Source of the DNA: Streptomyces sp. ICC1
GTDB lineage: Bacteria > Actinomycetota > Actinomycetes > Streptomycetales > Streptomycetaceae
Reading direction: 5' to 3'
NCBI RefSeq assembly: GCF_003287935.1
Contig: NZ_CP030287.1
Span: forward strand, 4,616,267 to 4,680,266
DNA length: 64,000 nt
The position numbers and the translations under genes are program-made. The notes under the pieces are model-generated. The model saw nothing but the letters and a program-made list of their open reading frames with translations, did not search any database and was not told the DNA's origin. Position 1 is the first letter of the stretch. Each line of letters starts with the position of its first letter. This document shows positions 14,405-34,106 of this stretch, piece by piece.

Positions 14405-14436
14405 TGGAGGGATACCTCCTTGTCTTCAGTGGCGTG

Positions 14437-19231: not shown

Positions 19232-19329
19232 CTGCCTCTCATACACATCTGACGCGCCCGACGAACTACTCTGAGTATATCGACTGCCTTCCCCAGTCTC
19301 TGGGGCCTCGAGAGGTGTATAATGTACAT
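19232..19329. other. Adapter-like chimeric junction
   Basis: 19232-19264 matches the Nextera transposase Read 1 adapter, reverse orientation, at 29 of 33 bases, including most of the 19-bp mosaic end (here CTGCCTCTCATACACATCT). 19296-19329 matches the Read 2 adapter in the opposite orientation (GTCTC..TGGG..CTCG then AGAGGTGTATAA). On the minus strand the first arm reads [10 protein letters not shown], close to the known adapter peptide SDVYKRQ. This is most simply a library artefact joining two unrelated fragments. Match percentages are by eye against remembered adapter sequences. Confidence 0.8.
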
Positions 19330-19350
19330 TTGCCACCCCTCCCCCCGGAC

Positions 19351-19394: not shown

Positions 19395-19438
19395 GTTTTA
19401 CTCCGCCCTGGCCCCTTCCTCGTCAAAGGAATCCCGCG

Positions 19439-20575
19439 ATGTCCGATCCGAACTCCGCGACCGCCGGTCCGACCGCCGGTCCGACCGCCGGTCCGACCGA
19501 TGGTCTGACCGATGGTCCGGCCTTCCCGCGGCTGCGCGCCGACGTCTCCACGCTCCCCCGCTACGTGCCGGGCAAGGCCGCCGCCGACGAGTTCGTCGAC
19601 AAGCTCTCCTCCAACGAGAACCCGTACCCGCCGCTGCCGTCGGTGATCGGCGCGGTCGAGAGCTGGCTGGGCCGGCTCAACCGCTACCCCGACCCCTCCT
19701 CCGCCGAGCTGACCGCCGAGCTCTCCGCGCGCCTGGGCGTGCCCGCCGACCACCTGGTCCTGGGCACCGGCTCCGTGGGCATCACCCAGCACCTGGTCGC
19801 GGCCGCCGCGGGCCCCGGCGACGAGGTCGTCTTCGCCTGGCGCTCCTTCGAGGCGTACCCGCTGCTGGCGTGGGCCGCCGGGGCGACCTCCGTACAGGTG
19901 CCGCTGCGCGACGAGACGCACGACCTGGACGCGCTGGCCGACGCGGTCACCGACCGCACCCGCATCGTCTTCGTCTGCAACCCGAACAACCCGACGGGCA
20001 CCGCCGTGCGCCGCGCCGAGCTGGAGCGGTTCCTGGACCGGGTGCCGCCCGAGGTGCTGGTCGTCATCGACGAGGCGTACCGGGAGTTCGTCGGGGACGA
20101 AGAGGTGCCCGACGGCATCGAGCTGTACCGGGACCGCCCCAACGTCGCCGTCCTGCGCACCTTCTCCAAGGCGTACGGGCTGGCCGCGCTCCGCGTCGGC
20201 TACGCGGTGGCCCACCCCCGGGTGACGGCCGCGCTGCGCGCCTGCTCCGTACCGCTCGGGGTGAGCGGCCCCGCCCAGGCGGCCGCGCTGGCCTCGCTGC
20301 GCGCCACGGAGGAGCTGCGCGAGCGGGTCGCCGACCTGGTGGCCGAGCGCGAGCGGGTCAGCGCCGGCCTGCGCGCCGAGGGCTACGAGGTCCCCGAGAG
20401 CCACGCCAACTTCGTCTGGCTGCGCCTGGGTTCCCGTACGGCCTACTTCGCGGACGCCTGCGAGGCGGCCGGCCTGATGGTCCGCCCCTTCGGCGACGAG
20501 GGCGTGCGCATCACGATCGGCTCCCCGGACGCGAACGACCGCCTCCTGAAGACGGCGGCCCACTGGGACCGGTAA
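19439..20575 (+). CDS. hisC: Histidinol-phosphate / aromatic aminotransferase
   Basis: 378 residues, ATG at 19439 with AAAGGA upstream. Fold type I PLP aminotransferase: substrate-loop SSNENPY near residue 58, NPNNPTG, the Asp of [13 protein letters not shown]-lysine in [16 protein letters not shown], and the C-terminal Arg of [10 protein letters not shown]. Transfers the amino group to imidazole-acetol phosphate in histidine synthesis, or acts on aromatic keto acids; Streptomyces often has a second such gene away from the his operon, and this solitary copy fits that. Residues 8-27 are a low-complexity TAGP/TDGP repeat from five 12-bp units (19461-19520). Its last 150 bp are duplicated at 24301. 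Confidence 0.8.
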
Positions 20576-20637
20576 CCCGGCACACGGTCGCGAGCAACGA
20601 GGAATCCCCGGGGCGGCTTACGGACCGGTGTTCACCC

Positions 20638-20724
20638 TCAGGTGCGAGTGGTGCCGAGGATGATGACGGCGAGGCCGCCGAGCAGGATCACGACGTAGAG
20701 GACCTGCCGGGCGTACTCGGTCAT
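20638..20724 (-). CDS. 28-residue single-span membrane peptide
   Basis: ATG at 20724 overlaps the upstream stop (TGATG). The peptide is almost all one hydrophobic helix (VLYVVILLGGLAVIIL) with a short charged N-terminus MTEYAR and a polar tail. Last gene of a three-gene coupled set next to the hisC 3' end. Function unknown; size resembles regulatory or holin-like small membrane peptides. Confidence 0.45.
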   Translation of the reverse strand: MTEYARQVLYVVILLGGLAVIILGTTRT

Positions 20725-20900
20725 CAGCAGGTCCGACGGGGCGCTGTGCCCCGAGCCGGCTTGCACGGGCCAGTGGGGCCGATCGGGTGGGCAAACAGGA
20801 CGGGGCGGCCGCCGGAGGCCGACTCGAAGGGGATCCGCTCGGCCGCCCCACGGATGGCCTGGTCGCAGAACACGCAGAACCGTCCGCCCTCGTACCTCAT
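20724..20900 (-). CDS. 58-residue Cys-containing protein
   Basis: ATG at 20900 in a 4-bp overlap with the 113-residue gene; its TGA overlaps the next ATG. Starts MRYEGGRFCVFCDQAI, with a CxxC knuckle at residues 9-12 and two more Cys near the C-terminus (GPCKPA, RRTC), so a zinc-bound mini-domain is plausible. No family recognised. Confidence 0.55.
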   Translation of the reverse strand: MRYEGGRFCVFCDQAIRGAAERIPFESASGGRPVLFAHPIGPTGPCKPARGTAPRRTC

Positions 20901-21238
20901 CCGGTCGCCTCATCGCCTCGTACCGGCTCCCGGTATTGGCTGGCTTCCGCGAGGTTCCGCAGGATGCGGGCCAGGGCCCTCGCGTGGTTCCAGTTCACGT
21001 GGTCGCCGTGGCTCGACGGGCCTACGTCGATGAAGTACGACCACTCGCTCAGCGCGGCTCCCGCACGTTCGGTCCTCTGGGCCGCCGGAACCTGAGACAC
21101 CTCGGTGTGAAGTTCGTATCCCACGGTGATCAGATCATCGACCAGGCGGGCCACACTTTCGGCGTCGGGGCGCTCCGAATAGGGAGCTAGAGCGCGCGCA
21201 GTGAGCTCCTCAACCGTCGGCGTCTTGCTGGGGTTCAT
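20897..21238 (-). CDS. Hypothetical 113-residue helical protein
   Basis: ATG at 21238. Helical and acidic (PDAESVARLVDDLITVGYEL; WNHARALARILRNLAEASQ). Couples by ATGA to the 58-residue gene. It lies downstream of the XRE regulator in the same direction and is probably co-transcribed with it. Function unknown. Confidence 0.6.
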   Translation of the reverse strand: MNPSKTPTVEELTARALAPYSERPDAESVARLVDDLITVGYELHTEVSQVPAAQRTERAGAALSEWSYFIDVGPSSHGDHVNWNHARALARILRNLAEASQYREPVRGDEATG

Positions 21239-21326
21239 CCTGATGCTCCCTACCGTCGTCAGCGGGTGGTGGAACCAGGGTGACGGCGAGGCAACTGAAG
21301 AAGGGGCCCGATTTGGGCCCCTCTCC

Positions 21327-22583
21327 CTACGCGGCCAGCATGCCGATATCGACAGCCAGTCGGCTTGCCCGTTGTCGGCGCTCCGGCACCCGTGACGTGG
21401 TCTCCTCCAGCACGATGGAGCGGGCGTACCCGTTGTAGCGGATCGTCTCCGGAGCGGCCGCGTGCGCCTGCTCCAACGTGGCCAGCGCAGTCTCGCGCTG
21501 CCCATCCAGGTAGTAGGCGCGGGCCTGCTCGATGCGGTGCCGGGCCCGGCGCGGCCGGGACGGGATCGCGCTGGTCTCAGCCCGGTTGGCCTGCCGTACG
21601 GACTCTCCGCCGGCTCGAAGCTCAACCGCGACGGTGACTCCGTGGGCCCCCATCACAGCTCGGCCGAAGGACGTCACCCGATGGAAGTAGTTGGCGGGCA
21701 GCTGGCGGGAAATACCGCCTGCCCGGTCCCACCATCCCCACGCGGTGCCGGTGTCACGGCGTTTCGCAGCAGTGAGTCCGGCCTCGACGCGGAGGGCTCC
21801 CGTGATCGCCTGCACGTCGAGCGGGGCGTCGGGTAGCCCGGGCTCCAAAAGTTGCAGCGCTTGCATGACGAGGTCGTCCGCCTCGTCGTAGTGACCCGGA
21901 CCGGAGTCCCGGTGAGCCTGCGCAGCCAGCCACGCTGCCACGCCGATCGCATGCAGGTCCTCGGATTCCTGCGCGGCGACCATGCCACGCTCGGCCACCC
22001 GCCACAACAGGGAGGGGTCCGGCTGGTAGGCGACGAAGAACTGGGCGAGGAAGAACGTCTCAGCCTGGAGGGCGAGGGCTGCGCGCCGGTCGCTCGCGGT
22101 ATCAGCCTGGCGGACGCCGAGCTGTGCGTCACGGACCAGCCCGGGCAGCAACTGGCCCAGGATCTCGCGGTGGTTGGGCGCCTCATGTCGGGCGGCCCAG
22201 GCGGCATCCAGCGCGGCCCGCAGATACACCTTCGTGGGTGCCTCCCGGGCGCCGGGCGCCGGGTATGCAGACAGCGCAGCGCGGACTGCGGGGAGACGAT
22301 CATGACCGGGCCCGAGGAACAGGTCGGTGTGTGGTTCGGCGCCGACATCGCCCACGAGGTCGTTCAGGCGGCGGACGCGGAGCACTTCGGCGATGCGGAG
22401 GATCTCCGGCAGGCGCGGCATTCCCATGGTGCCGGTCTCGATCTTCTTGACCCACGAGGCGTGGTGGCCGAGGAGGCCAGCCAGTTGCTCGCGGGTCATG
22501 CCTCGGCGGTTGCGGTAGATCTGGACACGTTGCCCGAACGCGACGGGGTTGTCGTACGGGTCGGGCGTAGCATCGGATGACAC
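21327..22583 (-). CDS. XRE-family regulator with TPR-like C-terminus (element 1)
   Basis: 418 residues from GTG at 22583 (AAGGGG upstream). N-terminal HTH: FGQRVQIYRNRRGMTREQLA and HHASWVKKIETG at residues about 14-55. The rest is an all-helical repeat region (ALALQAETFFLAQFFVAYQ; AWLAAQAHRDSGPGHYDEA), typical of Streptomyces XRE/TPR regulators. Genes of this type in the genus often control adjacent small genes. Here it is the regulator of element 1, divergent from the A1/B1 genes. Confidence 0.75.
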   Translation of the reverse strand: MSSDATPDPYDNPVAFGQRVQIYRNRRGMTREQLAGLLGHHASWVKKIETGTMGMPRLPEILRIAEVLRVRRLNDLVGDVGAEPHTDLFLGPGHDRLPAVRAALSAYPAPGAREAPTKVYLRAALDAAWAARHEAPNHREILGQLLPGLVRDAQLGVRQADTASDRRAALALQAETFFLAQFFVAYQPDPSLLWRVAERGMVAAQESEDLHAIGVAAWLAAQAHRDSGPGHYDEADDLVMQALQLLEPGLPDAPLDVQAITGALRVEAGLTAAKRRDTGTAWGWWDRAGGISRQLPANYFHRVTSFGRAVMGAHGVTVAVELRAGGESVRQANRAETSAIPSRPRRARHRIEQARAYYLDGQRETALATLEQAHAAAPETIRYNGYARSIVLEETTSRVPERRQRASRLAVDIGMLAA

Positions 22584-22628
22584 GGCCTTGCCCCTTCGTT
22601 GTACAGCTCGACACTGACCAGCGTAGGG

Positions 22629-22676
22629 GGCTGGGCCTTTCTTGTGCGCCCGTGGACGCACAAGAAAGGCCCAGCC
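22629..22676. terminator. 20-bp perfect hairpin
   Basis: Arms 22629-22648 and 22657-22676 are perfectly complementary (GGCTGGGCCTTTCTTGTGCG) with an 8-base loop. Lies just upstream of the XRE gene, so it could end transcription entering element 1 from the right, or be a regulatory stem in the XRE leader. Too symmetrical to decide direction. Confidence 0.6.
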
Positions 22677-22684
22677 AGGTTCGG

Positions 22685-22822
22685 TTCGATGGCCCGCCTG
22701 GAAGCCAAAACCCGTGTCGGGCCCAGCCACAGAAGGTGCGCCCAGTGCAGCCCGCACCACGTATCCGGCGTACGGGCGCTACTCCGCACCACAGACGGCA
22801 TCAGCCACTGTGCTGCTTGCCT
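22685..22822 (-). repeat. H segment, element 1 copy
   Basis: On the minus strand shares GTGGCTGATGCCG, CACCTTCTGTGGC and the spacing between them with the plus strand of 34107-34240. It reads WLMPSVVRS...CGLHWAHLLWLGP, but the counterpart at 34107 is frameshifted between the two motifs, so coding is doubtful. The remaining gap up to the A1 gene (to 23263) holds the palindromes listed separately and no credible gene. Confidence 0.5.
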
Positions 22823-23008
22823 CCGAGGGAACCCCACTCGTCCTGCCACCGGATATCCGACCCGTACCGACGAAGCGAGCACCGGAGCGCAGCGCAGGGC
22901 GCAGCCAACCCGTGGAGTCCGCAGACGCACACCGGCATCAGTGGGCTCTTATGGAAAAGAGGGCAGTTCCGAAAAACCTGCTCTGACCTGTGAGTTCACC
23001 AACGTCGG

Positions 23009-23208
23009 TGTGTCAGCGCTGACACATCGGCAGGCGAGGATGTGTCGCCGGGCAGCACCAACGACACTATTTCCTCCCAGTGAAGTGGGAGAAAAATACA
23101 AATACCCTGGTCAGTCAAGGGGAGGTCTCCGGCGCCCGCGGAGAGCGTGTCGGCGCCAACACGCAAAAGTCACACCGGCTGGGAGGATTTGTCCCAGTGC
23201 ACTGGGAC
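23009..23208. repeat. Palindromes upstream of A1, origin- or operator-like
   Basis: Perfect 18-bp palindromes TGTGTCAGCGCTGACACA (23009-23026) and GTCCCAGTGCACTGGGAC (23191-23208), plus a related TCCCA..TGGGA dyad at 23075-23090 beside an A-rich stretch (GAAAAATACAAATA). The arrangement directly upstream of a RepL-like gene resembles a replication origin or autoregulatory operator. Confidence 0.5.
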
Positions 23209-23263
23209 AACCCATTAGGCTGCGTGACGACTTCCCCCTTGAGTGAGGACGGAACCCACGCAC

Positions 23264-23890
23264 ATGCCGCGCCCCCAGCCCATTCGTCGAGCGTCCGGCT
23301 CGCAGCCTCCGCTCGTGCCCGTCTCCGACACCGGCGAGGAGTTCAGGGAGACGCTGACCGAGAAGTTCGCGGACCTCATCGGGAAGACGCCGGTGCGGGG
23401 CCGGCCGGTCCAGCAGGTGGACGTCAGTGTCCGGGTCACTCAGCGGGCCCCACACGAGATGTACGGGACGGCCGGCTTCAGCGCCGTCAGCAACGAGTTC
23501 CTCAGCGAGGTCCTCGCCGTCCTCATCGCCCAACACGGCATGTCCCCGATCCAGTCCGCCGTCCTGGTCTGGTGCATCGGCAAGCAGAAGGAGGGCTGGG
23601 TCAAGGCGACGCACAAGCTGATCGCCGAACGACTCGGGGTCGAGCGGGCCAACGTCACCCGGGCCGTCAGCCGCCTGGAAGAGTGGCACATGATCCAGAA
23701 GGTCCGCCCCGGTGTCCTCTTCGTGAATCCCCTGATCGGCTTCATGGGCAACGGCGACCGTCAGCAGGAGATCCTGGCTAAGCTGCGGCAAGGGACCCCA
23801 GAGAACGCGTTTCCCCTGCTCAACGCTCCACCCGCCCCACGAAGCGCGCAGTTGGAACTCGGTCAGGACCAGGAGGAGGCGGCATGCTGA
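23264..23890 (+). CDS. RepL-like winged-helix protein A1 (element 1)
   Basis: 208 residues from ATG at 23264 (GTG at 23243 would add 7). After a disordered start and a strand-rich segment comes a winged-helix domain at residues about 85-165: SPIQSAVLVWCIGKQ, THKLIAERLGVERANVTRAV, SRLEEWHMIQKVRPG, then VLFVNPLIGFMGNGDRQQEI. The final NP..xxGNGD signature matches the end of plasmid initiator/RepL-type wing domains (established pattern; assignment inferred). Its stop overlaps the B1 start by 7 bases. No catalytic recombinase residues are visible. Confidence 0.6.
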   Translation: MPRPQPIRRASGSQPPLVPVSDTGEEFRETLTEKFADLIGKTPVRGRPVQQVDVSVRVTQRAPHEMYGTAGFSAVSNEFLSEVLAVLIAQHGMSPIQSAVLVWCIGKQKEGWVKATHKLIAERLGVERANVTRAVSRLEEWHMIQKVRPGVLFVNPLIGFMGNGDRQQEILAKLRQGTPENAFPLLNAPPAPRSAQLELGQDQEEAAC

Positions 23891-24294
23891 TCCAGGCGAC
23901 CTTCGGACACGGAATGCTGCACAAGCTGAAGCTCTCCCGCGGCGCCCAAGACCTCCTGAGCGTGCTGATCGAGCTCCAGGAGCCGGGCGGCGAGGTACGG
24001 ATGTCCCAGCAGGAGCTCGCCGCTCGTGTGGGCCTCGGCAAGAACGCCGCCTCGACCGCCATGGCCTCACTAGTCGACCGGCACCTCGTTCTGCGACCGG
24101 AGAACAGCTACCGCACCTACATCCTGCATCCCTACATCGCGGGCTACGAGACCATCGAAGCCCTCGCGGCCGCAGTGCAGGAAGCAGCCCGCCGCATCCA
24201 GAACGGCACGCTCGACGAACCATCGGCCCCCCGCTACGAAACCGCGCCCCCCAAGAGGCAGCACCGGGAACTCCGAGCCGTCAGCGGCGCGTAG
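23884..24294 (+). CDS. Winged-helix protein B1 (element 1)
   Basis: 136 residues, ATG at 23884 inside the A1 3' end. Winged-helix core: LSRGAQDLLSVLIELQEPGG, SQQELAARVGLGKNAASTA, LVDRHLVLRPENSYRTYIL, then HPYIAGYET. B2 has the equivalent YRLHPLAAKYES, so the two B proteins are related. The gene ends 6 bases before the hisC 3' duplicate begins, placing it at the very edge of element 1. Confidence 0.6.
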   Translation: MLIQATFGHGMLHKLKLSRGAQDLLSVLIELQEPGGEVRMSQQELAARVGLGKNAASTAMASLVDRHLVLRPENSYRTYILHPYIAGYETIEALAAAVQEAARRIQNGTLDEPSAPRYETAPPKRQHRELRAVSGA

Positions 24295-24300
24295 CTGCCG

Positions 24301-24453
24301 CCCGAAAGCGACGCCAACTTCGTCTGGCTGCGCCTGGGTTCCCGTACGGCCTACTTCGCGGACGCCTGTGAGGCGGCCGGCCTGATGGTCCGCCCCTTCG
24401 GCGACGAGGGCCTGCGCATCACGATCGGCTCGCCGCACACGAACGAGGCGGCG
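24301..24453 (+). pseudogene. Duplicate of hisC 3' end
   Basis: About 147 bases align without gaps to 20393-20539 of hisC with 7 mismatches by eye (roughly 95 percent). In frame it reads [18 protein letters not shown] and on to [20 protein letters not shown], i.e. the PLP-enzyme C-terminal domain only. No start or upstream hisC sequence. Marks the right edge of element 1. Downstream to 24529 I see nothing else. Confidence 0.85.
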
Positions 24454-24529
24454 CACTCCGACGTGTTGTCGGGGTACGCCGCCTTCGGACGGGACGGCTT
24501 GCGGGAGCGGGCCCGCGCTGTCACGACCG

Positions 24530-25315
24530 CTACTTCGGGTCGCTGTTGAACTTCGAGGCCGACCAGAAGTAGCCGAGCACCGCGAGGCCCACGCACCAGG
24601 CGACCGCGAGCCACCCGTTGTGGCCGATCTCGCTGCCGAGCAGCAGCCCGCGCAGGGTCTCGATGGCCGGGGTGAACGGCTGGTACTCGGCGATCGGCTG
24701 GAACCAGCCCGGCATCCCCTCGACCGGGACGAAGGCACTGGACAGCAGCGGCAGGAGGATCATCGGCAGCGCGTTGTTGGAGGCGGCCTCGGCGTTCGGG
24801 CTGATCAGGCCCATGCCGACGGCGATCCAGGTGAACGCCAGGGCGAACAGGACGAGCAGCCCGAAGGCGGCCAGCCATTCCAGGGCGGTGGCGTCCGTGG
24901 ACCGGAAGCCGATGGCCACGCCCACGGCGCCCACGAGGACCACGCTCGCGATCGACTGGAGCACGCTGCCGATGACGTGCCCGATGAGCACCGATCCGCG
25001 GTGGATCGCCATCGTGCGGAAGCGGGCGATGATGCCCTCGGTCATGTCGTTGGAGACGGACACCGCGGTGCCGATCGTGGTGGAGCCGATGGTCATCAGC
25101 AGGAGGCCCGGCACGAGGTAGGCGATGTAGTCGGACCGGTCGCCGCCGCCGATGCCCGCGCTCATCACGTCGCCGAAGATGTAGACGAAGAGCAGCAGCA
25201 GCATGATCGGCGTGAGCAGCAGGTTCAGGGTGAGGGACGGGTAGCGCCGCGCGTGCAGGAGGTTGCGGCGCAGCATCGTGGCCGAGTCGCGGACGGCGAG
25301 GGAGATCGAGCTCAT
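24530..25315 (-). CDS. ABC-2 type exporter permease (DrrB-like)
   Basis: 261 residues, ATG at 25315 in a 4-bp overlap with the ATPase gene. Six hydrophobic helices with the ABC-2 signature region ([56 protein letters not shown]). Exports a lipophilic compound together with the adjacent ATPase; DrrAB-type pairs give self-resistance or lipid export. Substrate unknown. Confidence 0.85.
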
Positions 25316-26337
25316 CGGACAGCCTCCTCGGGCTGGTCGGTCTTGCCTGTCTGGTCGGTCTGGCCGGTCTTGCCGGTCTGATCGGTCTGGCCGGAGCGGC
25401 CGTGCCGCGGGTCGGTGCCGGTCAGGGCGAAGAACACGTCGTCGAGGTCGGGGGTGTGGACGGTGAGCTCGTCGGCCTCGATGCCGGCGGAGTCCAGCCG
25501 GTCGAGCACGGAGCGCAGCTCGCGCTGGCTGCCGTCGCTGGGGAGCTGCAGCGTCAGCGCCTCGTCGTCCCGGGTGGCCTCGCGCAGGGTGGCGGCGGCG
25601 AACTGGTACGCGGACGGGACGGAGAAGCGGAGCCGGATGTGGCCGCCGGGGATCAGCCGCTTGAGCTGGTCGGCGGTGCCCTGGGCGGCGATCTTGCCGT
25701 CGTTGAGCACCGCGATGCGGTCGGCGAGCTGGTCGGCCTCCTCCAGGTACTGGGTGGTGAGGAAGACGGTGACGCCGTCGGAGACGAGCCCGCGGATGAT
25801 CTGCCACATGTTGTGGCGGGCCCGGGGGTCGAGGCCGGTGGTCGGTTCGTCGAGGAAGATGATCCTCGGGTCGCCGACCAGGGTCATGGCGATGTCGAGG
25901 CGGCGCTTCATGCCGCCGGAGTAGGTGGAGGCGGGCTTCTTCGCGGCCTCCACCAGGTCGAAGCGCTCCAGGAGTTCGGCGGCGACCCGCCGCCCTTCCC
26001 GCCTGGACAGGTGGTGCAGGTCGGCCATGAGGAGCATGTTCTCCTCGCCGGTGATCAGCCCGTCGACGGCGGAGAACTGGCCGGTGACTCCGATCGCGGC
26101 GCGGACCGCCTGCGGGTCGGCGGCGAGGTCGTGGCCGCCGACGCGGATCGGGCCGGAGGCGGGGTCGGGGGAGACTAGGGTGGAGAGGATCTTGACGGCG
26201 GTGGTCTTGCCGGCGCCGTTCGGGCCGAGGAGGGAGAAGACCGTTCCCTCGGGGACGCTCAGGTCGATGCCGTCGAGCACGACCTTGTCCCCGTAGGACT
26301 TGCGCAGCCCGTTCGCGGTGATGGCGGGGTTCGTCAT
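25312..26337 (-). CDS. ABC transporter ATPase (DrrA-like)
   Basis: 341 residues. Walker A GPNGAGKTTA near residue 40, Q-loop GVTGQFSAVDGL, signature STYSGGMKRRL, Walker B IIFLDEPTTGLD, switch His replaced by Gln in FLTTQYLEEAD, as in DrrA proteins. C-terminal DrrA-type domain, then an odd GQTDQTGKT-type repeat tail (residues about 316-336) encoded by an imperfect 18-24 bp DNA repeat at 25333-25395. Works with the permease. The upstream DUF4097 gene and divergent regulator complete the locus. Confidence 0.85.
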   Translation of the reverse strand: MTNPAITANGLRKSYGDKVVLDGIDLSVPEGTVFSLLGPNGAGKTTAVKILSTLVSPDPASGPIRVGGHDLAADPQAVRAAIGVTGQFSAVDGLITGEENMLLMADLHHLSRREGRRVAAELLERFDLVEAAKKPASTYSGGMKRRLDIAMTLVGDPRIIFLDEPTTGLDPRARHNMWQIIRGLVSDGVTVFLTTQYLEEADQLADRIAVLNDGKIAAQGTADQLKRLIPGGHIRLRFSVPSAYQFAAATLREATRDDEALTLQLPSDGSQRELRSVLDRLDSAGIEADELTVHTPDLDDVFFALTGTDPRHGRSGQTDQTGKTGQTDQTGKTDQPEEAVR

Positions 26338-26358
26338 GGAGGGTGCTCCTTTTCAGGT

Positions 26359-27030
26359 TTACAGGCTGCGGGCGGTGACGTTGCCGTAGGCGGTGGTCGC
26401 GTGGATGTTGAGGCCGGCGGCGGCGCCGTCGGTGTTGCCGAGGGCGTTGTGGATCCGGCCGTACGAGGTGCCGGCATCGAGGGTGGCGGACACCCCGCGG
26501 GCGGCACCGACCGAGATCTCGCCGTACTCGGTGCGCAGTTCGACGGTGCCGTGCACGGCCTCGGTGATGGAGAGGTCGCCCTTCTGCGTGCTGATCCGGG
26601 CGGACCCGCCCAGATGCCCGACCGAGACGTCACCGGCCATCAGCGTCAGCTGGACGCTCTGCGCCTCGTCGAGCTTGACGGAACCCTGCGCGCCCTCGAA
26701 GGCGACGTCACCGAGGCGTCCGACGCCCCGGAGTTCGGCGCTGGCCGCCTTCGCCTCGACGCGGGAGCCGGCCGGCAGCTGGACGGTGACCTCGACGGAT
26801 CCGGAGGAACCCAGGATCTGGTTCTTCGCCTCCGGGGCCTTAATCCGCAGGACGCCGTCGCCGTACTCGACGGTGGTCTGCTCGGCCGCCTTCACGTCGC
26901 GGCCCTTGGAGGCGTCCGCCGGGCGGACCTCGACCGCGGTGTCCGCCCGGTCGGTGGCGATGAACCGGACGCTTCCCGCGGGGATGTCCAGGACGGCCGA
27001 GATGGGGGCGGGGGTGACGAACTTCTGCAT
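26359..27030 (-). CDS. DUF4097 family beta-helix protein
   Basis: 223 residues, ATG at 27030 with CAGGAG upstream. Repeating short beta strands (VRFIATDRADTAVEV, VEVTVQLPAGSRVEAKAAS, VKLDEAQSVQLTLMAGDVSV) typical of DUF4097 adhesin-like right-handed beta-helix proteins. In Streptomyces such genes frequently sit between a GbsR/MarR regulator and an ABC exporter, as here. Role not known; no signal peptide seen. Confidence 0.8.
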   Translation of the reverse strand: MQKFVTPAPISAVLDIPAGSVRFIATDRADTAVEVRPADASKGRDVKAAEQTTVEYGDGVLRIKAPEAKNQILGSSGSVEVTVQLPAGSRVEAKAASAELRGVGRLGDVAFEGAQGSVKLDEAQSVQLTLMAGDVSVGHLGGSARISTQKGDLSITEAVHGTVELRTEYGEISVGAARGVSATLDAGTSYGRIHNALGNTDGAAAGLNIHATTAYGNVTARSL

Positions 27031-27191
27031 GATGTTCTCCTGCGACTCGTTGTTTCCGATGAGTGAAAAGCTACGTTGCTTTCCAACTCCCGACAAGAAC
27101 TTCATTGCGCAGAATCCACATCTCCGCAGCTCAGAGCCCAGATTTCGTTGCGAAGGACCACAATCAAACGCAACGACGAACCCGCCAACCG

Positions 27192-27221
27192 TTGCAATGA
27201 ACTGAAAGTGAACGCTATACT
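27192..27221 (+). promoter_or_regulatory. Promoter of GbsR/MarR gene
   Basis: TTGCAA (27192-27197) and TATACT (27216-27221) with an 18-bp spacer, 68 bp before the ATG. Short GTTGC/GCAAC elements recur around it (27071, 27147, 27171, 27191) and may be binding sites for the regulator controlling the divergent genes. Confidence 0.65.
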
Positions 27222-27288
27222 GGAGCCATCGGCCACCCCGGAACAGACCAGGGAACTGGTCACGGGCCGGACCACGAAGGAGACCGCG

Positions 27289-28026
27289 ATGCCGGGAGGC
27301 AGACTCACCCAGCAGGAACGCCAGCAGATCGCGCTGGGGGTGGCCGACGGCCTCGCCTACGCGGAGATCGCCAGGCGCCTCGACCGTCCGACCTCGACGA
27401 TCACGCGCGAGGTCATGCGCAACGGGGGCCCCACCGGCTACCGCGCCGACCAGGCCCACCGCGCCACCGAACGCCGCGCACACCGGACCAGGCAGCCCGC
27501 GCCGCGGGGCGCGGGAACGGCCCCGCAGGCCTACGGCCGCGACGCCGACGCGGTGCGCGCGTACGAGGAGGTGTTCACCAACGTCATCGTCGCCTCGGGC
27601 ATGCCCAAGATGACGGCCCGGGTGATGGCCGCCCTCACCCTCACCGACGCGGGCAGCCTCACCGCGTCCGAACTCGTCCAGCAGCTCCAGGTCAGCCCGG
27701 CGTCCGTCTCCAAGGCGATCACGTTCCTCGACGAGCAGGGCCTCGTCCGCCGGGAACGCGACGAAGGCCGCCGCGAGCGCTACGTCGTCGACGACGACGT
27801 CTGGTACCAGTCGATGATGGCCAGCGCCCGCTCCACCGCCCTGATAGTGGAGACCACCCGCCAGGGCGTCGCCGTCCTCGGCTCCGACACCCCGGCCGGC
27901 ACCCGCATGGAGAACATCGCCCGCTTCCTCGACTTCGTCACCGAGAGCATCACCCGCGCCGCGGAACAGGCCCGCGAGATCCTCCACGCAAAGCCGGAAC
28001 CGCCCCCGGGCGCCGAGCGCGGATAG
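27289..28026 (+). CDS. GbsR/MarR-type regulator with IS30-like HTH
   Basis: 245 residues from ATG at 27289 (AAGGAGA upstream). Residues about 5-45 are a HTH of the type seen in IS30 transposases (LTQQERQQIALGVADGLAYA, RLDRPTSTITREVM); residues about 95-170 are a MarR-like winged helix (LTASELVQQLQVSPASVSKA, FLDEQGLVRRERDEGRRERY). Likely represses the divergent DUF4097/exporter operon. Its last part from 27907 is duplicated at 32663, and the final residues (PPPGAERG) differ from the duplicate (PPQGNDRP), consistent with its 3' end having been replaced by element 2. Confidence 0.8.
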   Translation: MPGGRLTQQERQQIALGVADGLAYAEIARRLDRPTSTITREVMRNGGPTGYRADQAHRATERRAHRTRQPAPRGAGTAPQAYGRDADAVRAYEEVFTNVIVASGMPKMTARVMAALTLTDAGSLTASELVQQLQVSPASVSKAITFLDEQGLVRRERDEGRRERYVVDDDVWYQSMMASARSTALIVETTRQGVAVLGSDTPAGTRMENIARFLDFVTESITRAAEQAREILHAKPEPPPGAERG

Positions 28027-28029
28027 ACA

Positions 28030-28467
28030 GCCGCCTTGGTGGTCACAGCCAGCGCAGGATCCACGGGAACGTCTCGCCCGTGACTCCCGGCTTCGGGCGG
28101 CCGGAGTCGGCAGCTTCAGGTTGGGCAGGTCACCCGCCTGGATGCGGACGAAGGCCACGCGGAACGCCACCTCCATGGTCTCGGGGCTCTCGTACTTCGC
28201 CGCGAGCGGGTGAAGCCGGTACGAGTTGCCCTGACGCTCCTCACTGCGCGGCCTGAGGACGATGTTCAGGTCGCACAGGGGTGCCATGAGCCCGCTGACG
28301 GCTTGGGGCGTGACCCCGTACTCGACCGCCATGTCCTTCTGGCGGACCGGCAGCACTCCCCCGAAGTCACTGCGGGAGACGAGGTACTGGAGGAACTTCA
28401 CGGCGGACCCTGACAGAGGCAGGGCCCAGATCCGCTCGGCGATGATCGGAGACATGACGTGAGGCAT
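28030..28467 (-). CDS. Winged-helix protein B2 (element 2), no stop codon at element edge
   Basis: ATG at 28467 with AGAGGAAGG upstream. Winged-helix: SGSAVKFLQYLVSRSDFGG, RQKDMAVEYGVTPQAVSGLM, LCDLNIVLRPRSEERQGNSY then RLHPLAAKYES, parallel to B1. The reading frame stays open across the element boundary into antisense of the GbsR/MarR gene for over a kilobase, so the native C-terminus and stop appear to have been lost when the element joined the chromosome. End coordinate given is the boundary. Confidence 0.55.
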
Positions 28468-28518
28468 GGGACAGCCTTCCTCTGGGAGAGGCAACCGTAC
28501 GGGGGTCAAGCAGCGCGA

Positions 28519-29223
28519 TCACCCGGTGCGCCTCCTGCCGCGCACAGCCTCTTTGACGGCGAAGCCGAGGTCGAGCTCTTCCTGATGGGCGCCTTGCGGA
28601 CCCACCGCGTACGGGAACGCCTCGGTGTCGTGCCCGTGGCGGTCGGCGATCTCTGCGAGCACGGCGTGCTGGGCCGTGCTGTTGCCGTGGAACCACAGGC
28701 GCACGTTGATCTGGACACGGCCGTTGCCGGCTTTCTCCACCCAGTTGTAGCCGCACAGCGCCTGAACGGCGCGGTTGACCGTGGACCGCGTGATCATCTT
28801 GCCGCCCTTCTGCGCGGCGATCCTGTTCAGCCCGTCCGTGATCTCCTGCTGCGTGTACTGGGTGATGCCGGTCCCCGGAAGCTGTCCGCCGGCCACGAAG
28901 AGGAACACGCAGAGCTGGGACTTGGTGATGCTGTTCGCGACGGCCAGCTGCGCCAGCAACTGTGTGAACCAGTTGCTGGCCAGGCTGTATCCGGCGTCTC
29001 CGGCCATGTCGTGGACGGCTCTCGGATCCGCCGCGTACTCGAAGTGGACTCCCGTGAGTCGGCGGCGACCACCGGGGTCGGCGGCGTGTGCCGCCTGCTG
29101 CCCGAGCTGTTGGCCCAGGACGGCCAGGATGTCTCCGTACTCGGCTTCGTCCCCCGCGGCCGTGGCAGCGGGAACAGGCCGGGGCCCGCGCTGCCGATGA
29201 CGGGCGGGCGGATCAGATGTCAC
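28519..29223 (-). CDS. RepL-like winged-helix protein A2 (element 2)
   Basis: 234 residues, ATG at 29223. Long Ala/Gln-rich N-terminal part, then winged-helix segment: SITKSQLCVFLFVAGGQLPG, YTQQEITDGLNRIAAQKGG, ITRSTVNRAVQALCGYNWV, AGNGRVQINVRLWFHGNST. The R..VNRAVQAL helix and terminal N..xxFHGN match the A1 pattern. Co-directional with B2, 51 bp gap. Proposed initiator or autoregulator of element 2. Confidence 0.6.
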   Translation of the reverse strand: MTSDPPARHRQRGPRPVPAATAAGDEAEYGDILAVLGQQLGQQAAHAADPGGRRRLTGVHFEYAADPRAVHDMAGDAGYSLASNWFTQLLAQLAVANSITKSQLCVFLFVAGGQLPGTGITQYTQQEITDGLNRIAAQKGGKMITRSTVNRAVQALCGYNWVEKAGNGRVQINVRLWFHGNSTAQHAVLAEIADRHGHDTEAFPYAVGPQGAHQEELDLGFAVKEAVRGRRRTG

Positions 29224-30137
29224 AGGACCTCCTAGTGGCTCAGGCGGTCCGAGACATCCAAAAAATCAACGTGTGCTTGTCTTTTCGCATACAGGCGCAC
29301 CGGAGCCACCTCTGCGCGGAACCCCGTTCGATCGGGGCGCCAAAACTCCACAACACGTGAAGTTATTTTGCCGTCAAGGGCCAAAAATCCATGGCTCCTT
29401 GATTTACACGTGTCGCAATGACGACACATTCGCAAGCCTCGGCGTTCGATCGAAGGCGTCGCGCCACCTCCCTGCCCGACTCGCTGACCTGCACCGTTCG
29501 GCGGCCGATCAGCGCCACCAAAAAGTTCACGATCAATTGAGTTTTCCACGAAATGTGCTTGCCGGGAACACATTCCAGAGGTCCAAATGTGTCCTGGGGG
29601 ACACATACCGTCAGACAAACCAGCAGGTCAGGAGCTTAAGTTGGCGGCGCCCTCTTACCAAAGAGCAACGTGAGCGACGGCATCAACGGGCGCCGGCCCT
29701 CTGTGAGCTGTACTCCCGCGCATCTTCCGCCCGACGCACCGACAACAGGCAGCTGCCATACGGCTCCCCTCCCTGGACCTCAGCCGACACACCCTGGCTT
29801 CCTCCGGCCCTCTCGCTCCGTACGGCCCGCACTCCCCCTCCTCAGCCCGATCCAAGCTGGACCACGTTTTCCCGCGTCCCTCATGCCCAGTGAGGGCGCC
29901 CCGCGCCCGAGGGGTGCACCGGCGACCGTCAGGGAGCCGGGGCAGGGCATGAGGGGGAGCGGGTCCAGGGCGCCCGAGCGCCTGGCGAGGGGGTCTGGGG
30001 GGCGAGTAGCCCCCCATGCCAAGGCCGGTCCAGCGCGGCCAGGCGCTGGCGGGGTCCAGGGGCTGGCCCCTGGGATTCACGGTCCGCGGCCGAGGACGTA
30101 AGAGAACCCGGATCCGGAAAGGGGTGTCCCGGGGGCG
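29224..30137. other. Origin-like noncoding region of element 2
   Basis: No credible gene in 900 bp. The left half is AT-richer than the surroundings (for example CCAAAAAATCAAC; GTTATTTTGCC) and contains TGTGTC-N6-GACACA at 29588-29605, the same palindrome class as 23009, and TGTCG-N6-CGACA at 29411-29426. The right half (29880-30110) is a run of G-rich/C-rich stem-loops. This fits a replication origin or control region upstream of A2. Confidence 0.45.
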
Positions 30138-30989
30138 TCAGGAGGCGAGCGAACGTCGAACCCTGCTGATCGCGTGCTGAGCACCAGCCCCGAAGACGGC
30201 GGACTCTCGCAGCGTCTTCCACACGCGCAGGTGGGTGGCGATGCTGTCAGCGTCGTCCAGCCACATTTCGGCATGCCAGGTCTCGGTGGTCACCAGCCGG
30301 TCGTCGTAGATCCAGAAGCCAGCACCAGGGGGAAGCTTCAAGGGGGCCCCGAGCGGGACGATCCCCAACTCCACGGTGTCGAGGCCGACCACACCCAAGA
30401 GGCGGTCAAGCTGGGCCGCGAGTACCGGGGGCGGGCAGATCTGGGCGTGCAACACGGCTTCCCAGAGCAAGATCTCGTACCGCTTACCCGCGGCGTACAG
30501 ACCCTCTTGCCGCCTCATCCGGGAGCGTACGGCCTCTTCGATGTCCCTTGGCGTGTGGTGCAGTTCGGCAAAGTGGGTGAGCATGGCACGGGCGTAGTCA
30601 GGCGTTTGGAGTACACCCACGACCCACGACGATTCCCACGCCCTGAGGACCGTCGAGCTTGCCTGCACAACGTTGTGAGCGTCCTGGACGGGCTTTTGCC
30701 CGGCGGCGAGTTGGCGGCGCCACGAACGCATGTGGGACTCGAACCCGCGGAGCCGGCTCAGCAGCTCCGCGTACGCATCCGGCTGTCCGGTCGCCTCAGT
30801 CCACTCACGCAGGTCGTCAGGGGTCGCCGTCTGCCTGCCGTTCTCAAGCTTGCTGACCTTGCTCTGCCCCCAGCCAAGGCGCTGGGACAGAGCTGTACCG
30901 GTGATACGGCCCTGCGGCCCCGACTCGCGTAGTTCACGCAGCCGGAGCCCCAATGCCTCGCGCGCCTTCTGAAAGTCCGTCACCGGCAC
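30138..30989 (-). CDS. XRE regulator, DUF5753 type (element 2)
   Basis: 283 residues. HTH at residues about 15-60 (GTALSQRLGWGQSKVSKLEN), then the DUF5753 region: RAWESSWVVGVLQTPDYARA, MRRQEGLYAAGKRYEILLWE, GAGFWIYDDRLVTTETW. Member of the very large Streptomyces family that pairs with small DUF397 or DUF6879 proteins. Reads towards A2/B2 and follows the DUF6879 gene. Confidence 0.85.
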   Translation of the reverse strand: MPVTDFQKAREALGLRLRELRESGPQGRITGTALSQRLGWGQSKVSKLENGRQTATPDDLREWTEATGQPDAYAELLSRLRGFESHMRSWRRQLAAGQKPVQDAHNVVQASSTVLRAWESSWVVGVLQTPDYARAMLTHFAELHHTPRDIEEAVRSRMRRQEGLYAAGKRYEILLWEAVLHAQICPPPVLAAQLDRLLGVVGLDTVELGIVPLGAPLKLPPGAGFWIYDDRLVTTETWHAEMWLDDADSIATHLRVWKTLRESAVFGAGAQHAISRVRRSLAS

Positions 30990-31007
30990 CTGCTCTGTCC
31001 TATTTCC

Positions 31008-31763
31008 CTACGGGGCTGCCGTGAGGCCGGCCTCGAACGTCTTGTACGGGACCGCGTAGTGCCACGCGGCATCCCTCACCTGGGCGTAGCGGTTGACCTC
31101 AACCGGCTCCGTGATCAGCTCAACATCGACCAAGTTGTCGGCCTCATCGAAATTGAGGACGGCGACGATCCTGGAGTCAAAGATCCAGAAGTCCTCGGCC
31201 GGCAGCTGGAGCCGCTCGGCGTCCTTCCTCCACAGGTTGCGGATGTCCTCCCCCAGCGCCGCATTCTTGTCGGCGTGCGCCAGGAGGTATCGCTGCCCCA
31301 CGGTCACGGGGTCGTCCACGATGCGCACGCGGCCGACAGTCACACCTCTCTGCGTCTTCTCCCGAATGGTGACGCTCCACGGGGTGCCCAGGTCCCATGC
31401 CGGAGTCTCGCCCCGCAGGAACTGGGTGTACGTCTCGGTGCCCTCGTCGGACGCGTACCGGGACCGTGTCTCCAGCCTCCAGGCAGTGTGCTGGAAGTTC
31501 TCGAACAGCTTGCCGAAGGCGTCCAGGTCGATGATGCGGGGCACGCGAGAGACCTCCTTCGGGCCGAAGTCCACCAGCAGCTCACGCGGGACCACGATCG
31601 GCACCTCACCGTCAGACAGGTGCCGGAGCTGGGCAATGTCCTCAGGGTCTGTGAGCGGCGTTCCGTGGACGATGATCTCCTTGCTGTCCAGATCCTCGTG
31701 CACAGCCGGGCAGCCACCCTCGCCGCTACCCGTGCCGTTGAGCCGCAACCTACGTGCCATCAC
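31008..31763 (-). CDS. DUF6879 family protein
   Basis: 251 residues (GTG 31763 or ATG 31760). First 85 residues are a strand-rich extra segment; the family core follows: DLDAFGKLFENFQHTAWRLE, TQFLRGETPAWDL, GVTVGRVRIVDDPVT, YLLAHADKNAALGEDIRNL, LPAEDFWIFDSRIV. DUF6879 genes sit beside XRE/DUF5753 regulators, as here. Biochemical role unknown. Confidence 0.75.
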   Translation of the reverse strand: MMARRLRLNGTGSGEGGCPAVHEDLDSKEIIVHGTPLTDPEDIAQLRHLSDGEVPIVVPRELLVDFGPKEVSRVPRIIDLDAFGKLFENFQHTAWRLETRSRYASDEGTETYTQFLRGETPAWDLGTPWSVTIREKTQRGVTVGRVRIVDDPVTVGQRYLLAHADKNAALGEDIRNLWRKDAERLQLPAEDFWIFDSRIVAVLNFDEADNLVDVELITEPVEVNRYAQVRDAAWHYAVPYKTFEAGLTAAP

Positions 31764-31857
31764 GCTGACCTCTCGCCGGAAGGACGGGGACTCCTGTCAA
31801 GCGTCCCCGCCGCCGCTCCGGAATGTCGAGGCATACCAGCACACTGCGCGAGAATAA

Positions 31858-31873
31858 TTGAGAATAGTCTCAA
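31858..31873. promoter_or_regulatory. TTGAGA-N4-TCTCAA operator-like palindrome
   Basis: Perfect dyad in the divergent gap between the DUF6879 gene and the small plus-strand genes, overlapping an AT-rich AATAATTG stretch. A likely binding site for the element 2 XRE regulator. Confidence 0.5.
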
Positions 31874-31939
31874 CATGGCCCAACTCCACCTCCCTACCGT
31901 TCCGTTCATCAGCACGAGACGGGCAGCAGCGGAGGCGAC

Positions 31940-32179
31940 ATGGCTGTGACCACAACCAAGAAGCGCAACGGGACTTGGAGCGGCATGTGGCAACAGGTTC
32001 CGCAGCGTGATCCGTTCCCCAGAGCTGACGCCGTCACGGTCGCAGGGTGCGCCGACTGCTCAGAGCTGATCGCCCTTCGCTCTGCCGCACGCAAGATCCT
32101 GGACGCGAGTACGGCAACCGACTGCAACATCCGGATCCGGCTCCACTCCGAGGAACACGGACGGAAGGCTCAGGCATGA
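31940..32179 (+). CDS. Small CxxC protein 1 (element 2)
   Basis: 79 residues, ATG at 31940 behind GGAGGC. VAGCADCSELIALRSAARKI and a later Cys (ATDCNIRIRLH) suggest a zinc or redox site. The next gene has the matching pattern, so they are a tandem pair. 4-bp overlap with it. Confidence 0.6.
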   Translation: MAVTTTKKRNGTWSGMWQQVPQRDPFPRADAVTVAGCADCSELIALRSAARKILDASTATDCNIRIRLHSEEHGRKAQA

Positions 32180-32352
32180 CTGCCCCCGCCTCTCAGGCCG
32201 AGCCGACTCACGTCCCCAAACCTGTACCGGGCTGTAAGACCTGCGCCCATGAAGCGATCTTCCGACGGGCGGCGATCAAAGCCGGTGACGAGTCCATCGT
32301 GGCCGACTGCGACACCCGAATCAGGGAGCACGGTACCGGGCACCGCGGGTGA
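32176..32352 (+). CDS. Small CxxC protein 2 (element 2)
   Basis: 58 residues, ATG at 32176. PGCKTCAHEAIFRRAAIKAG then VADCDTRIREH, the same CxxC...DC layout as the preceding protein. Coupled by GTGA to the next gene. Function unknown. Confidence 0.6.
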   Translation: MTAPASQAEPTHVPKPVPGCKTCAHEAIFRRAAIKAGDESIVADCDTRIREHGTGHRG

Positions 32353-32585
32353 CCGCCGGGGAGACAGTCGCCGACGAGCAGTTGACGTACCCAGGCGGCC
32401 CGTACGCGGACTCTCCGGCCGGTTGGTGGACTGAGTACGGCGGGGTGCTGGACAGACGATCAGGGGTCATCTTCTGGCCCCCGGGCAGTAGTCGCCCCCG
32501 TCCGTGCTTCGACTGTGACTGCGAACGCGGCAGGAAGGCTCGTGACGATTCAGAGGTGCGCGGCCCAGACACGGGCACCCGCTGA
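32349..32585 (+). CDS. Hypothetical 78-residue protein (element 2)
   Basis: GTG at 32349 overlapping the previous stop. Contains aromatic-rich PAGWWTEYGGVLDRRSGVIFW and a CFDCDC cluster near the C-terminus, so again a possible metal site. Last gene before the terminator and the gene-fragment boundary. Confidence 0.55.
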   Translation: MTAGETVADEQLTYPGGPYADSPAGWWTEYGGVLDRRSGVIFWPPGSSRPRPCFDCDCERGRKARDDSEVRGPDTGTR

Positions 32586-32600
32586 TCCCTTGATCGGCAG

Positions 32601-32641
32601 CGCCATGGAGGACCAGGCCGGCGGGGCCGTCCTCCATGGCG
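32601..32641. terminator. Terminator at the right end of element 2
   Basis: 13-bp stem CGCCATGGAGGAC / GTCCTCCATGGCG with a GC-rich 15-base loop, 16 bp after the last small gene and 21 bp before the duplicated gene fragment. Confidence 0.6.
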
Positions 32642-32662
32642 GGGGCGCCGCAGGACCGGTCA

Positions 32663-32782
32663 ATGGAGAACATCGCCCGCTTCCTCGACTTCGTCACCGA
32701 GAGCATCACCCGCGCCGCGGAACAGGCCCGCGAGATCCTCCACGCAAAACCGGAACCGCCGCAGGGCAACGACCGCCCATAA
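32663..32782 (+). pseudogene. Duplicate of GbsR/MarR 3' end
   Basis: First 98 bases match 27907-28004 with one mismatch; then the ends diverge, reading PQGNDRP before TAA here versus PGAERG before TAG at 28026. A good terminator follows directly, so this is probably the native chromosomal 3' end, separated from the gene by element 2. Confidence 0.85.
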
Positions 32783-32814
32783 CCGCCCGCCCGTCCCGCA
32801 CGAGGGGCGGGCGG
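32783..32814. terminator. Terminator after the GbsR/MarR 3' fragment
   Basis: 10-bp GC stem CCGCCCGCCC / GGGCGGGCGG right after the TAA, followed within 20 bases by GGGGTTT. Serves the displaced 3' end. Confidence 0.6.
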
Positions 32815-32839
32815 CCCCAACGGGCGGGGTTTCGTGGCC

Positions 32840-33163
32840 TCAGTTGTTGACGACCCTCAGGTGCGCGGCCGGCTGCTCGCGCTCCGCCTCCACCGTCGGC
32901 GTCAGCCGGAAGACCTTCACCGGGCCGACACTGTCCACGACTTCGAGCCACCCGAGCGCCTCGAGCTCCTTGCGTGTCCGGGAGAAGACCGGGGCGCTCA
33001 TGCCCGCGGTCTCGGCGAGTTCGGTGGCCTTGATCCAGACCGACCCGTCCGGTCGCTGCTCGGCGGCCGCGTACAGCATGACGACGATCCGCTGGTTCGG
33101 GTTCAGAACCCGTCCCGTGCGCTTGAGGACGTACAGCACGTCCTCGCTGCCGTGGACCTTCAT
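32840..33163 (-). CDS. Winged-helix protein B3 (element 3)
   Basis: 107 residues, ATG at 33163 in a 4-bp overlap with A3. Winged helix: NPNQRIVVMLYAAAEQRPDG, IKATELAETAGMSAPVFSRT, RKELEALGWLEVVDSVGPVK. Ends 26 bp from the terminator of the GbsR/MarR fragment, so B is again at the element's edge. Shorter than B1 at the C-terminus. Confidence 0.6.
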   Translation of the reverse strand: MKVHGSEDVLYVLKRTGRVLNPNQRIVVMLYAAAEQRPDGSVWIKATELAETAGMSAPVFSRTRKELEALGWLEVVDSVGPVKVFRLTPTVEAEREQPAAHLRVVNN

Positions 33164-33648
33164 GTCGCGTCTCTCCTCGTCTTCTTGCGTTGGCGGTCTC
33201 TCGGCTTCGGAATCCTCATCTCCGGGGGGTTCCAGTCGGAAACCGCCTCACGGTGTTCGAAGCCCGTTCCGATGAACGCAAGGTACGGGGTCGTTCGATA
33301 GAACTTCGTACGGCCGATCCCACCGGACTCGACCAGCAGGCGAGCTCCCTTGAGGACCTTGATGGTCCTGGACAGGGAGTCCGGACTCATATTGAGTTCG
33401 GACGCGACGGCCACACCGGTCATCTGGACGGGCCCCTGGCGCTCCTCCGTCGCGAACCAGTACCAGACCAGCACCCGGAACTCGCGGTCGCTCAGACCTG
33501 AGTCGGCTGAGGCCAGTTGGCGGCCTCGGCGGATCCCGACGTTGATGTGGGGTCCGTCGAAGGCGTACGGGGCACGGGGAACCTCCTCCATGTCGCCCGT
33601 GTCTGGATCGACGAGGGCGAGGACCTTGCTCCGTGCCGACTCCGCCAT
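33160..33648 (-). CDS. RepL-like winged-helix protein A3 (element 3)
   Basis: 162 residues from ATG at 33648 (GTG at 33678 also possible). LSDREFRVLVWYWFATEERQ, MTGVAVASELNMSPDSLSRT, IKVLKGARLLVESGGIGRTK, then FYRTTPYLAFIGTG, the same order of elements as A1 and A2 and a basic C-terminal tail. The A3/B3 pair and the palindromic iterons 190 bp upstream look like a plasmid replication module. Confidence 0.6.
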   Translation of the reverse strand: MAESARSKVLALVDPDTGDMEEVPRAPYAFDGPHINVGIRRGRQLASADSGLSDREFRVLVWYWFATEERQGPVQMTGVAVASELNMSPDSLSRTIKVLKGARLLVESGGIGRTKFYRTTPYLAFIGTGFEHREAVSDWNPPEMRIPKPRDRQRKKTRRDAT

Positions 33649-33838
33649 CTGCGAACCGCCCCATCCCTTAGCCACGAGCCACGCGGCCCTTCCCCAGACC
33701 GACGCACTTAGCACATTGCACATTACCGCATGGCTAATCAACACCCACCCCGAACGGGACATTCTTTGCTCATCGCTAATCAACCGAGCCTCGGGACTGG
33801 AGCGCCCGTCAAGACAACGATGTGCACATAGCTAACTG

Positions 33839-33923
33839 ACCCGACCCCAGGATCTACTCAACCCGATCCCAGGATCGGGTTACCTGATTCCAGGATCGGG
33901 TTACCCGATCCCAGGATCGGGTT
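33839..33923. repeat. Palindromic 21-bp iterons upstream of A3
   Basis: Tandem units at 33839-33859 (degenerate), 33861-33881, 33882-33902 and 33903-33923. Consensus ACCCGATCCCAGGATCGGGT; each is itself a near-perfect dyad of AACCCGATCC around a CA centre. Two units are identical. This is the organisation of initiator-bound iterons at plasmid origins. Confidence 0.75.
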
Positions 33924-34106
33924 GCATTAGACGTTTCCGCAGGTCAAAAGCGTGCGGGGGCTGCGTCCTCTTAATACATGGAAAGGCCCGTGCCCACCCG
34001 GCGGCTCTCGACGGGTGGCTGCTCGCCCTGTCGCTCCGCTCCAGCGCTCCCAGGTGGGTCCACCTCTTGGACTTCGGCTGCCCGATCACGGGGGTCGCCG
34101 ACCGGG

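Follow-up and report, generated by a model that had tools for sequence, protein, structure and literature searches.

Gene content of the locus

We describe here three loci, E1, E2 and E3, in a 64,000-nucleotide stretch of the genome of Streptomyces sp. ICC1 (assembly GCF_003287935.1, contig NZ_CP030287.1, positions 4,616,267 to 4,680,266; hereafter the window, in whose coordinates positions are given). Each locus carries two adjacent genes for winged-helix proteins, in the order A then B, as open frames. The source's own genome record, G000, is a single contig of 9.03 Mb, and related genomes are likewise cited by number. The six genes are:

23264..23890, + strand: A1, RepL/MarR-type winged-helix protein, probable replication initiator
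23884..24294, + strand: B1, second winged-helix protein (profile match and structure model)
28106..28467 (start of range approximate), − strand: B2, truncated at the marR junction, with loss of its C-terminus and stop codon; 60-93% to the B proteins of 20 E2-type loci
28519..29223, − strand: A2, winged-helix protein, probable replication initiator
32840..33163, − strand: B3, RepL2-like; 90.7% to the protein annotated as RepL2 on plasmid NBC_01244
33160..33648, − strand: A3, RepL1-like; 72.5% to RepL1 of pSHJG1 and 90.7% to the NBC_01244 counterpart

The pairs and their order had been recognised in an initial annotation made from the letters alone, and its coordinates were good except that B2 needed correction. 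The B2 frame stays open past its lost last codons and stop and runs through the antisense of the neighbouring gene; most of the relatives read end in KLxVA followed by a stop. Third-position GC content was 0.77-0.93 in the five intact A/B genes.

When A1 was compared with Pfam RepL (PF05732), a family of Firmicute plasmid replication proteins, it scored 26.8 bits, above the gathering cut-off of 20.3; the Pfam scan also covered A2, with weak matches, but not B2. Profile comparison related A1 to A2 with 99% probability over 158 columns and A1 to A3 with 91% over 102 columns. A1, B1, A3 and B3 matched PHROG replication-initiation families weakly, and A2 had no match to these families. Single-chain structure models bore out the winged-helix assignment in part: the B1 model is a winged helix (predicted local distance difference test score, pLDDT, 81.9), and in the A1 model only the winged-helix core is confident, 97 of 208 residues being below pLDDT 50 and the mean being 60.7. 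Fold matches were weak (50 listed for each of A1 and B1, of which two and one, respectively, had E ≤ 0.001) and were mostly to MarR- and CRP-type regulators; no recombinase was described among them. Nor was a recombinase gene found among the scanned open reading frames of the piece of DNA that carries the three loci, a scan that left out the ABC genes, B2 and a few small frames; this agrees with the initial annotation. Its further proposal that A and B may form a new recombination system finds no support in these predicted folds.

Upstream regions

The non-coding DNA upstream of each A gene contains the following features.

22692..23263: non-coding region preceding A1, a probable origin; conserved in G208 and also, starting from 22713-22716, in NBC_01006 and NBC_01205
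29224..30117: non-coding region preceding A2, likewise a probable origin; conserved to ~30109-30117 in several relatives
33839..33923: four palindromic iterons of ~21 bp upstream of A3, detected by repeat search, probable origin of E3

Iterons of ~20-22 bp were present upstream of A in all six E3-type loci examined (the window and five relatives). Repeated 10-mers numbered 22 upstream of A1 and 22 upstream of A3, above all 300 shuffles (maximum 8), and six of 12 upstream regions from relatives likewise exceeded their own shuffles. The repeats seen upstream of A1 are those of a 23-nt inverted repeat at 22629-22676, which lies outside the conserved unit. The palindromes or iterons that the initial annotation had placed ahead of every A gene stand out at E3 and, with that proviso, at E1; at E2 the count of 6 was not above shuffles (maximum 8).

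The 22-kb piece is bounded by artificial joins

The ~22-kb piece that carries E1, E2 and E3 ends on either side at a discontinuity in the assembly.

19232..19335: artificial join between contigs, marked by two degraded remnants of the Nextera adapter
41344..41398: second artificial join (41343/41344), where 41835-41889 recurs as a fold-back copy

At the left join a copy of the Nextera mosaic end lies at 19232-19250 with 2 mismatches (0 expected from 100 shuffles); the query was what we take to be the Nextera adapter sequence. The local adapter score there was 25, compared with 11-14 for background matches. Across the whole record the adapter pattern occurred at 44 + 58 (102) sites with at most 3 mismatches, whereas the reversed pattern gave 0 + 0; the adapter sites are denser toward the end of the record. 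Of 10 places fetched, the six inspected all show adapter remnants, and long hairpins adjoin two of them. At the right join, comparison of the window and 20 kb on each side with itself gave a single 55-bp inverted repeat, 41344-41398 / 41835-41889, plus two direct repeats only. A core chromosomal gene breaks off at 41399; its remainder is found at 6.80 Mb, 2.1 Mb away, behind an adapter remnant. This gene is whole in G005: the window supplies positions 124-1274 of the compared stretch and the rest, from 1317, lies behind G000 position 6804723, directly after the adapter remnant, so that ~42 bp are missing between the two parts. Of three single-contig relatives, two show chromosomal synteny again from 41387-41399, and the third matches only from 49902 on.

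The record is demonstrably a string of concatenated contigs with adapter remnants at joins, the stretch 19335-41343 is flanked by artificial joins on both sides, and positions 1-19231, to its left, do not form continuous DNA with the hisC gene that begins the piece. Therefore the window says nothing about chromosomal integration, and the description of the loci as integrated is not supported: what seemed an integrase-less mobile element was a product of contig concatenation, a false lead that is now removed. This 'single-contig' genome, with about 100 Nextera remnants, is unfit for arguments from neighbourhood or integration, and neighbourhoods that cross a remnant should not be trusted.

Two chromosomal settings were considered and rejected. 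An island ending at the tRNA-His at 49903 was discarded because core synteny is already back at 41387-41399 in two of the three relatives; no second copy of the tRNA end beyond a 13-base match was found in the window and 20 kb on each side. A hotspot near oriC was also set aside: dnaA is at 1.98 Mb, and the 75-79% hisC matches in relatives lie without the window's flanks (29 loci).

Partial gene copies beside the B genes

Repeats of two gene 3' ends, hisC and marR, adjoin the loci.

19439..20575, + strand: hisC, hisC-like aminotransferase gene of a plasmid-borne aromatic cluster (PF00155; start taken from the position of an ATG, whereas the mechanically called frame begins within the join, at 19322); both the gene and its cluster recur on plasmids NBC_01244, NBC_01298, NBC_00435 and NBC_00335
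24301..24446, + strand: hisC', partial copy, 95% to 20393-20538; its junction with E1 is seen in no relative
24530..26337, − strand: ABC permease and ATPase, similar to annotated ABC genes on many Streptomyces plasmids
27076..28026, + strand: marR, MarR-type regulator adjoining the ABC genes (HTH_38, MarR_2); conserved in G082
32663..32782, + strand: marR', partial copy; the allele has diverged and ends in a stop codon of its own

Within 18-37 kb, an unbiased search for repeats returned one direct repeat of 146 bp at 95% (20393-20538 / 24301-24446) and one of 114-129 bp at 91-95% (27907-28035 / 32663-32791; 129 bp at 91% in the search itself). hisC' breaks off ~45 bp short of the hisC stop and passes directly into ABC-side DNA; there is a short similarity where the two meet. 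The gene 3'-end duplications reported for two of the loci are thus present, but neither hisC' nor marR' is a clean attachment-site duplication.

We considered whether the loci are integrated mini-elements whose site-specific insertion at the 3' ends of genes is catalysed by A/B or by a host enzyme. All three B genes of the window adjoin a copy of a gene 3' end, and four relatives (G277, G208 in part, NBC_01244, and G256 with only 83 bp of hisC) have E3 next to the end of hisC. These four lack such a duplication, however, and among 65 distinct relative pairs (34 E1-, 20 E2- and 11 E3-type) none has a direct repeat of at least 100 bp beside B. The search covered the 500 bp beside B in fetched loci of 5.5-40 kb; shorter direct repeats of 50-88 bp occurred in eight of the 65, at 72-100% identity, one of them an 88-bp tandem, and the search was not aimed at attachment cores shorter than 50 bp. 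The initial annotation had named absence of flanking duplications from related genomes as a result that would speak against it, and for duplications of the size seen in the window this is what we observed. In addition, hisC' lacks the gene end, marR' is another allele, the neighbours of B vary among 13 plasmid regions fetched, the modelled A and B folds are winged-helix only, and both flanks of the piece are assembly joins. G082 has hisC next to the ABC genes without a replication (rep) unit, yet offers no precise site correspondence, since the window's hisC' lacks the hisC end. We regard site-specific insertion as extremely improbable.

Two other explanations could account for the copies. The E1/hisC' stretch was matched in seven of 353 genomes, of which the source's own record alone spans the junction; nor is that junction spanned by any of the best 10 of 29 plasmid rows, or the marR' junction by any of the best 10 of 70. 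A real composite plasmid, in which homology-assisted or microhomology-mediated recombination stacked three replicons and left partial copies behind, has slightly better than an even chance of being correct. It is consistent with G256, where E3, E1 and E2 are adjacent with an 83-bp hisC end, with plasmid NBC_01267, where E1- and E2-type loci lie ~10 kb apart with ABC genes between them in the order of the window, and with the short similarity at the hisC'/ABC joint; against it, the E1/hisC' junction occurs only in this assembly, which is faulty elsewhere. Alternatively, the inner junctions (24294/24301 and ~32640/32663) may be an assembly merge of co-resident related plasmids with different rep units at their hisC and marR ends. 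Every relative seen matches one side only of the E1/hisC' junction and the remainder of the record is concatenated, but neither inner junction shows an adapter remnant or long fold-back, and assembler overlaps would be expected to be identical rather than 91-95%. Because no adapter remnant is found there the inner junctions may be real, and we hold a merge to be quite possible, at somewhat less than an even chance.

Relatives on public plasmids

The backbone of the 22-kb piece reads hisC ... ABC-marR ... aroA-tkt-aroB-aroC. Its hisC is rare, being found in six of 392 genomes at E ≤ 1e-180 with its own genome counted, and the cluster is carried by two linear plasmids in public databases, NBC_01244 of 300 kb and NBC_01298 of 161 kb, and occurs in two further plasmid records, NBC_00435 of 178 kb and NBC_00335 of 297 kb. 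What lies between hisC and the next genes differs. In G082 there are 36 bp to the ABC genes and no rep unit; in G277 and NBC_01244 there is E3, the hisC and RepL2 coding ends overlapping by 11 bp on NBC_01244; G208 has an E3 remnant, an XRE gene and E1; G256 has E3, E1 and E2 side by side; and G073 has 3.9 kb of DNA. It can be seen from the G082, G277, NBC_01244, G208 and G256 arrangements that replicon modules come and go at hisC without long flanking duplications.

Plasmid records matching A1, A2 and A3 at E ≤ 1e-3 numbered 87, 99 and 112, respectively; the A1 and A2 lists overlap, some of the 87 A1 records being E2-type, and the A3 list takes in 10 records of Escherichia, Klebsiella and Synechocystis. 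Partition genes (parA/parB) lay within 1-7 kb of the pair in four of the 13 fetched plasmid regions, three with E2-type pairs on circular plasmids and one with an E3-type pair on a linear plasmid. A phage origin was rejected: weak matches occurred in two phage records alone, both of phage Gilgamesh. In the record of pSGRIFU2, A is flanked on either side by B and several neighbouring genes in mirror-image arrangement, as though the record joined two plasmid ends head to head.

E1-type pairs show a particular position. In 28 of 40 plasmid rows listed (of the 87) the A1 match lies 32-2135 bases from the record end, reading inward, and in the other 12 it does not; random placement would put ~2% of matches that near an end. 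Of 23 loci in draft genomes, 18 have an inward-reading A1 no more than 1.6 kb from the end of a contig, and five do not. The segment 22947-23027 upstream of A1 is common to linear-plasmid ends at 75-77%. The window's own E1 copy is not at an end. By eye, several of nine printed E1-bearing ends look packed with palindromes.

The A/B pairs as probable replication initiators

From homology, gene order and the E3 iterons we conclude that the A/B pairs are probably plasmid replication initiators, so that the suggestion in the initial annotation of a RepL-like two-protein initiator next to an origin was probably right. Given this, no integration mechanism is needed. E3 most resembles the RepL1/RepL2 locus of pSHJG1, where both genes are annotated, and of NBC_01244, where RepL2 is: both consist of two small same-strand winged-helix genes with ~21-bp upstream iterons on a linear plasmid. 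Compared with its counterparts in 11 E3-type pairs, B3 is 60-94% to eight and 47-57% to the remaining three. We presume this locus to be of the pSLA2-L type. By A-B homology, strand and iterons E3 is a member of the known RepL1/RepL2-type linear-plasmid replication loci, with putative replication activity; it differs in standing in a composite piece beside the marR' fragment, and E1 and E2 are at most distant relatives. Other resemblances concern layout. pFRL1 is reported (Zhang, Peng and Qin, 2010) to have rep1A-ncs1 and rep2A-ncs2, one locus by the telomere and another ~10 kb inward, a layout that resembles NBC_01267. In their two-gene layout A and B are also like the theta-type loci repAB of pWTY27, where RepA binds an iteron and which supports a linear mode once telomeres are attached, and repI/repII of SCP2, as described in PMC3583192.

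By analogy, A would bind the iterons or palindromes upstream of its own gene, and B might assist it in opening the origin, with recruitment of the host replisome. Replication would then be theta-type and bidirectional, as at the pWTY27 locus. Replicon modules would have been exchanged at positions between hisC, the ABC-marR genes and aroA, and rearrangement or assembly would have left the two gene-3'-end copies.

A potential alternative is that A and B are transcriptional regulators or partition accessories rather than initiators. Many of their relatives are annotated as MarR family, in keeping with the MarR- and CRP-type fold matches; the E3 iterons, the parAB genes near some pairs, the end-proximal E1-type pairs, the names RepL1, RepL2 and RepL given by depositors and the weak PHROG matches all argue the other way, and we think this alternative very unlikely.

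Several observations weigh against the initiator interpretation or the join model that accompanies it. A2, at 16.3 bits, falls below the RepL cut-off of 20.3 and A3 has no match at E ≤ 1; homology of B1 to B3 was unsupported in profile comparison (12% probability); parAB was absent from nine of the 13 fetched plasmid stretches; and the E2 upstream region, like six of the 12 from relatives, did not stand out from shuffles. Initiator activity, the A-B partnership, the replication mode and the origin of the repeats are deduced from sequence, and the piece may or may not exist as a free plasmid in the source strain. The second join has a fold-back but no recognised adapter, and the two inner junctions have no adapter remnant. 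Finally, the rising adapter density suggests that contigs were sorted by length, in which case a piece of only 22 kb would not be expected at 4.6 Mb; the join model therefore rests on the split gene and the adapters.

Taking these points together, we consider one overall explanation highly likely. The 22-kb piece is plasmid-like DNA, part of a Streptomyces linear-plasmid-type locus, which a concatenated assembly placed between unrelated contigs; E3 belongs with the RepL1-RepL2 locus of pSHJG1, E1 with pairs that lie beside linear-plasmid ends, and E2 with pairs that occur on circular and linear plasmids, some near parAB; and the gene-3'-end copies are one-off by-products of rearrangement or products of assembly, not attachment sites. 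The occurrence of related two-gene winged-helix loci at end-proximal, partition-linked and internal positions on Streptomyces plasmids is a pattern that deserves proper study.

The system is ordinary, except for the end-proximal habit of E1. A literature search gave no paper describing an E1-type pair in its title or the opening of its abstract. It is conceivable, if unlikely, that E1-type A/B pairs, which in most rows listed read inward at a nearly constant ~0.9-2.1 kb from the end, act as a replication module dedicated to the ends of Streptomyces linear plasmids, and that telomere-side initiation or telomere completion may be coupled to it. If true, this could matter for telomere classes without known end-patching proteins, such as those described in PMC8743542.

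Other features

The remaining features of the piece are:

21327..22580, − strand: XRE-type regulator, cargo adjoining E1 (HTH_31); same segment by E1 in G208
30138..32585, no single strand: XRE (DUF5753), DUF6879 and small Cys-containing genes (profile matches); a set of HTH regulator and DUF6879 is also near an E3-type pair on NBC_00466
35310..41315, − strand: aroA, tkt, aroB and aroC of the plasmid cluster, aroB being named after the plasmid annotation

The aromatic cluster common to two linear plasmids, NZ_CP108489 (36000-76000) and NZ_CP108416, comprises DAHP synthase, aroA, aroB, aroC, aroH, prephenate dehydrogenase, tkt, hisC and 4-hydroxyphenylacetate hydroxylase. In G277 and G208 a tRNA-Trp-like sequence, recognised by eye, adjoins the rep unit before the next plasmid genes. 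A scan against Rfam returned tRNA alone at the gathering threshold, and four sub-threshold matches in 19100-19450 from an E-value search were taken as chance. Positions 1-19231 belong to a different contig, which carries an NlpC/P60 gene, a DNA methylase, DUF4913 and a weak match to EccE that falls below the cut-off, and which is reminiscent of a conjugative element.

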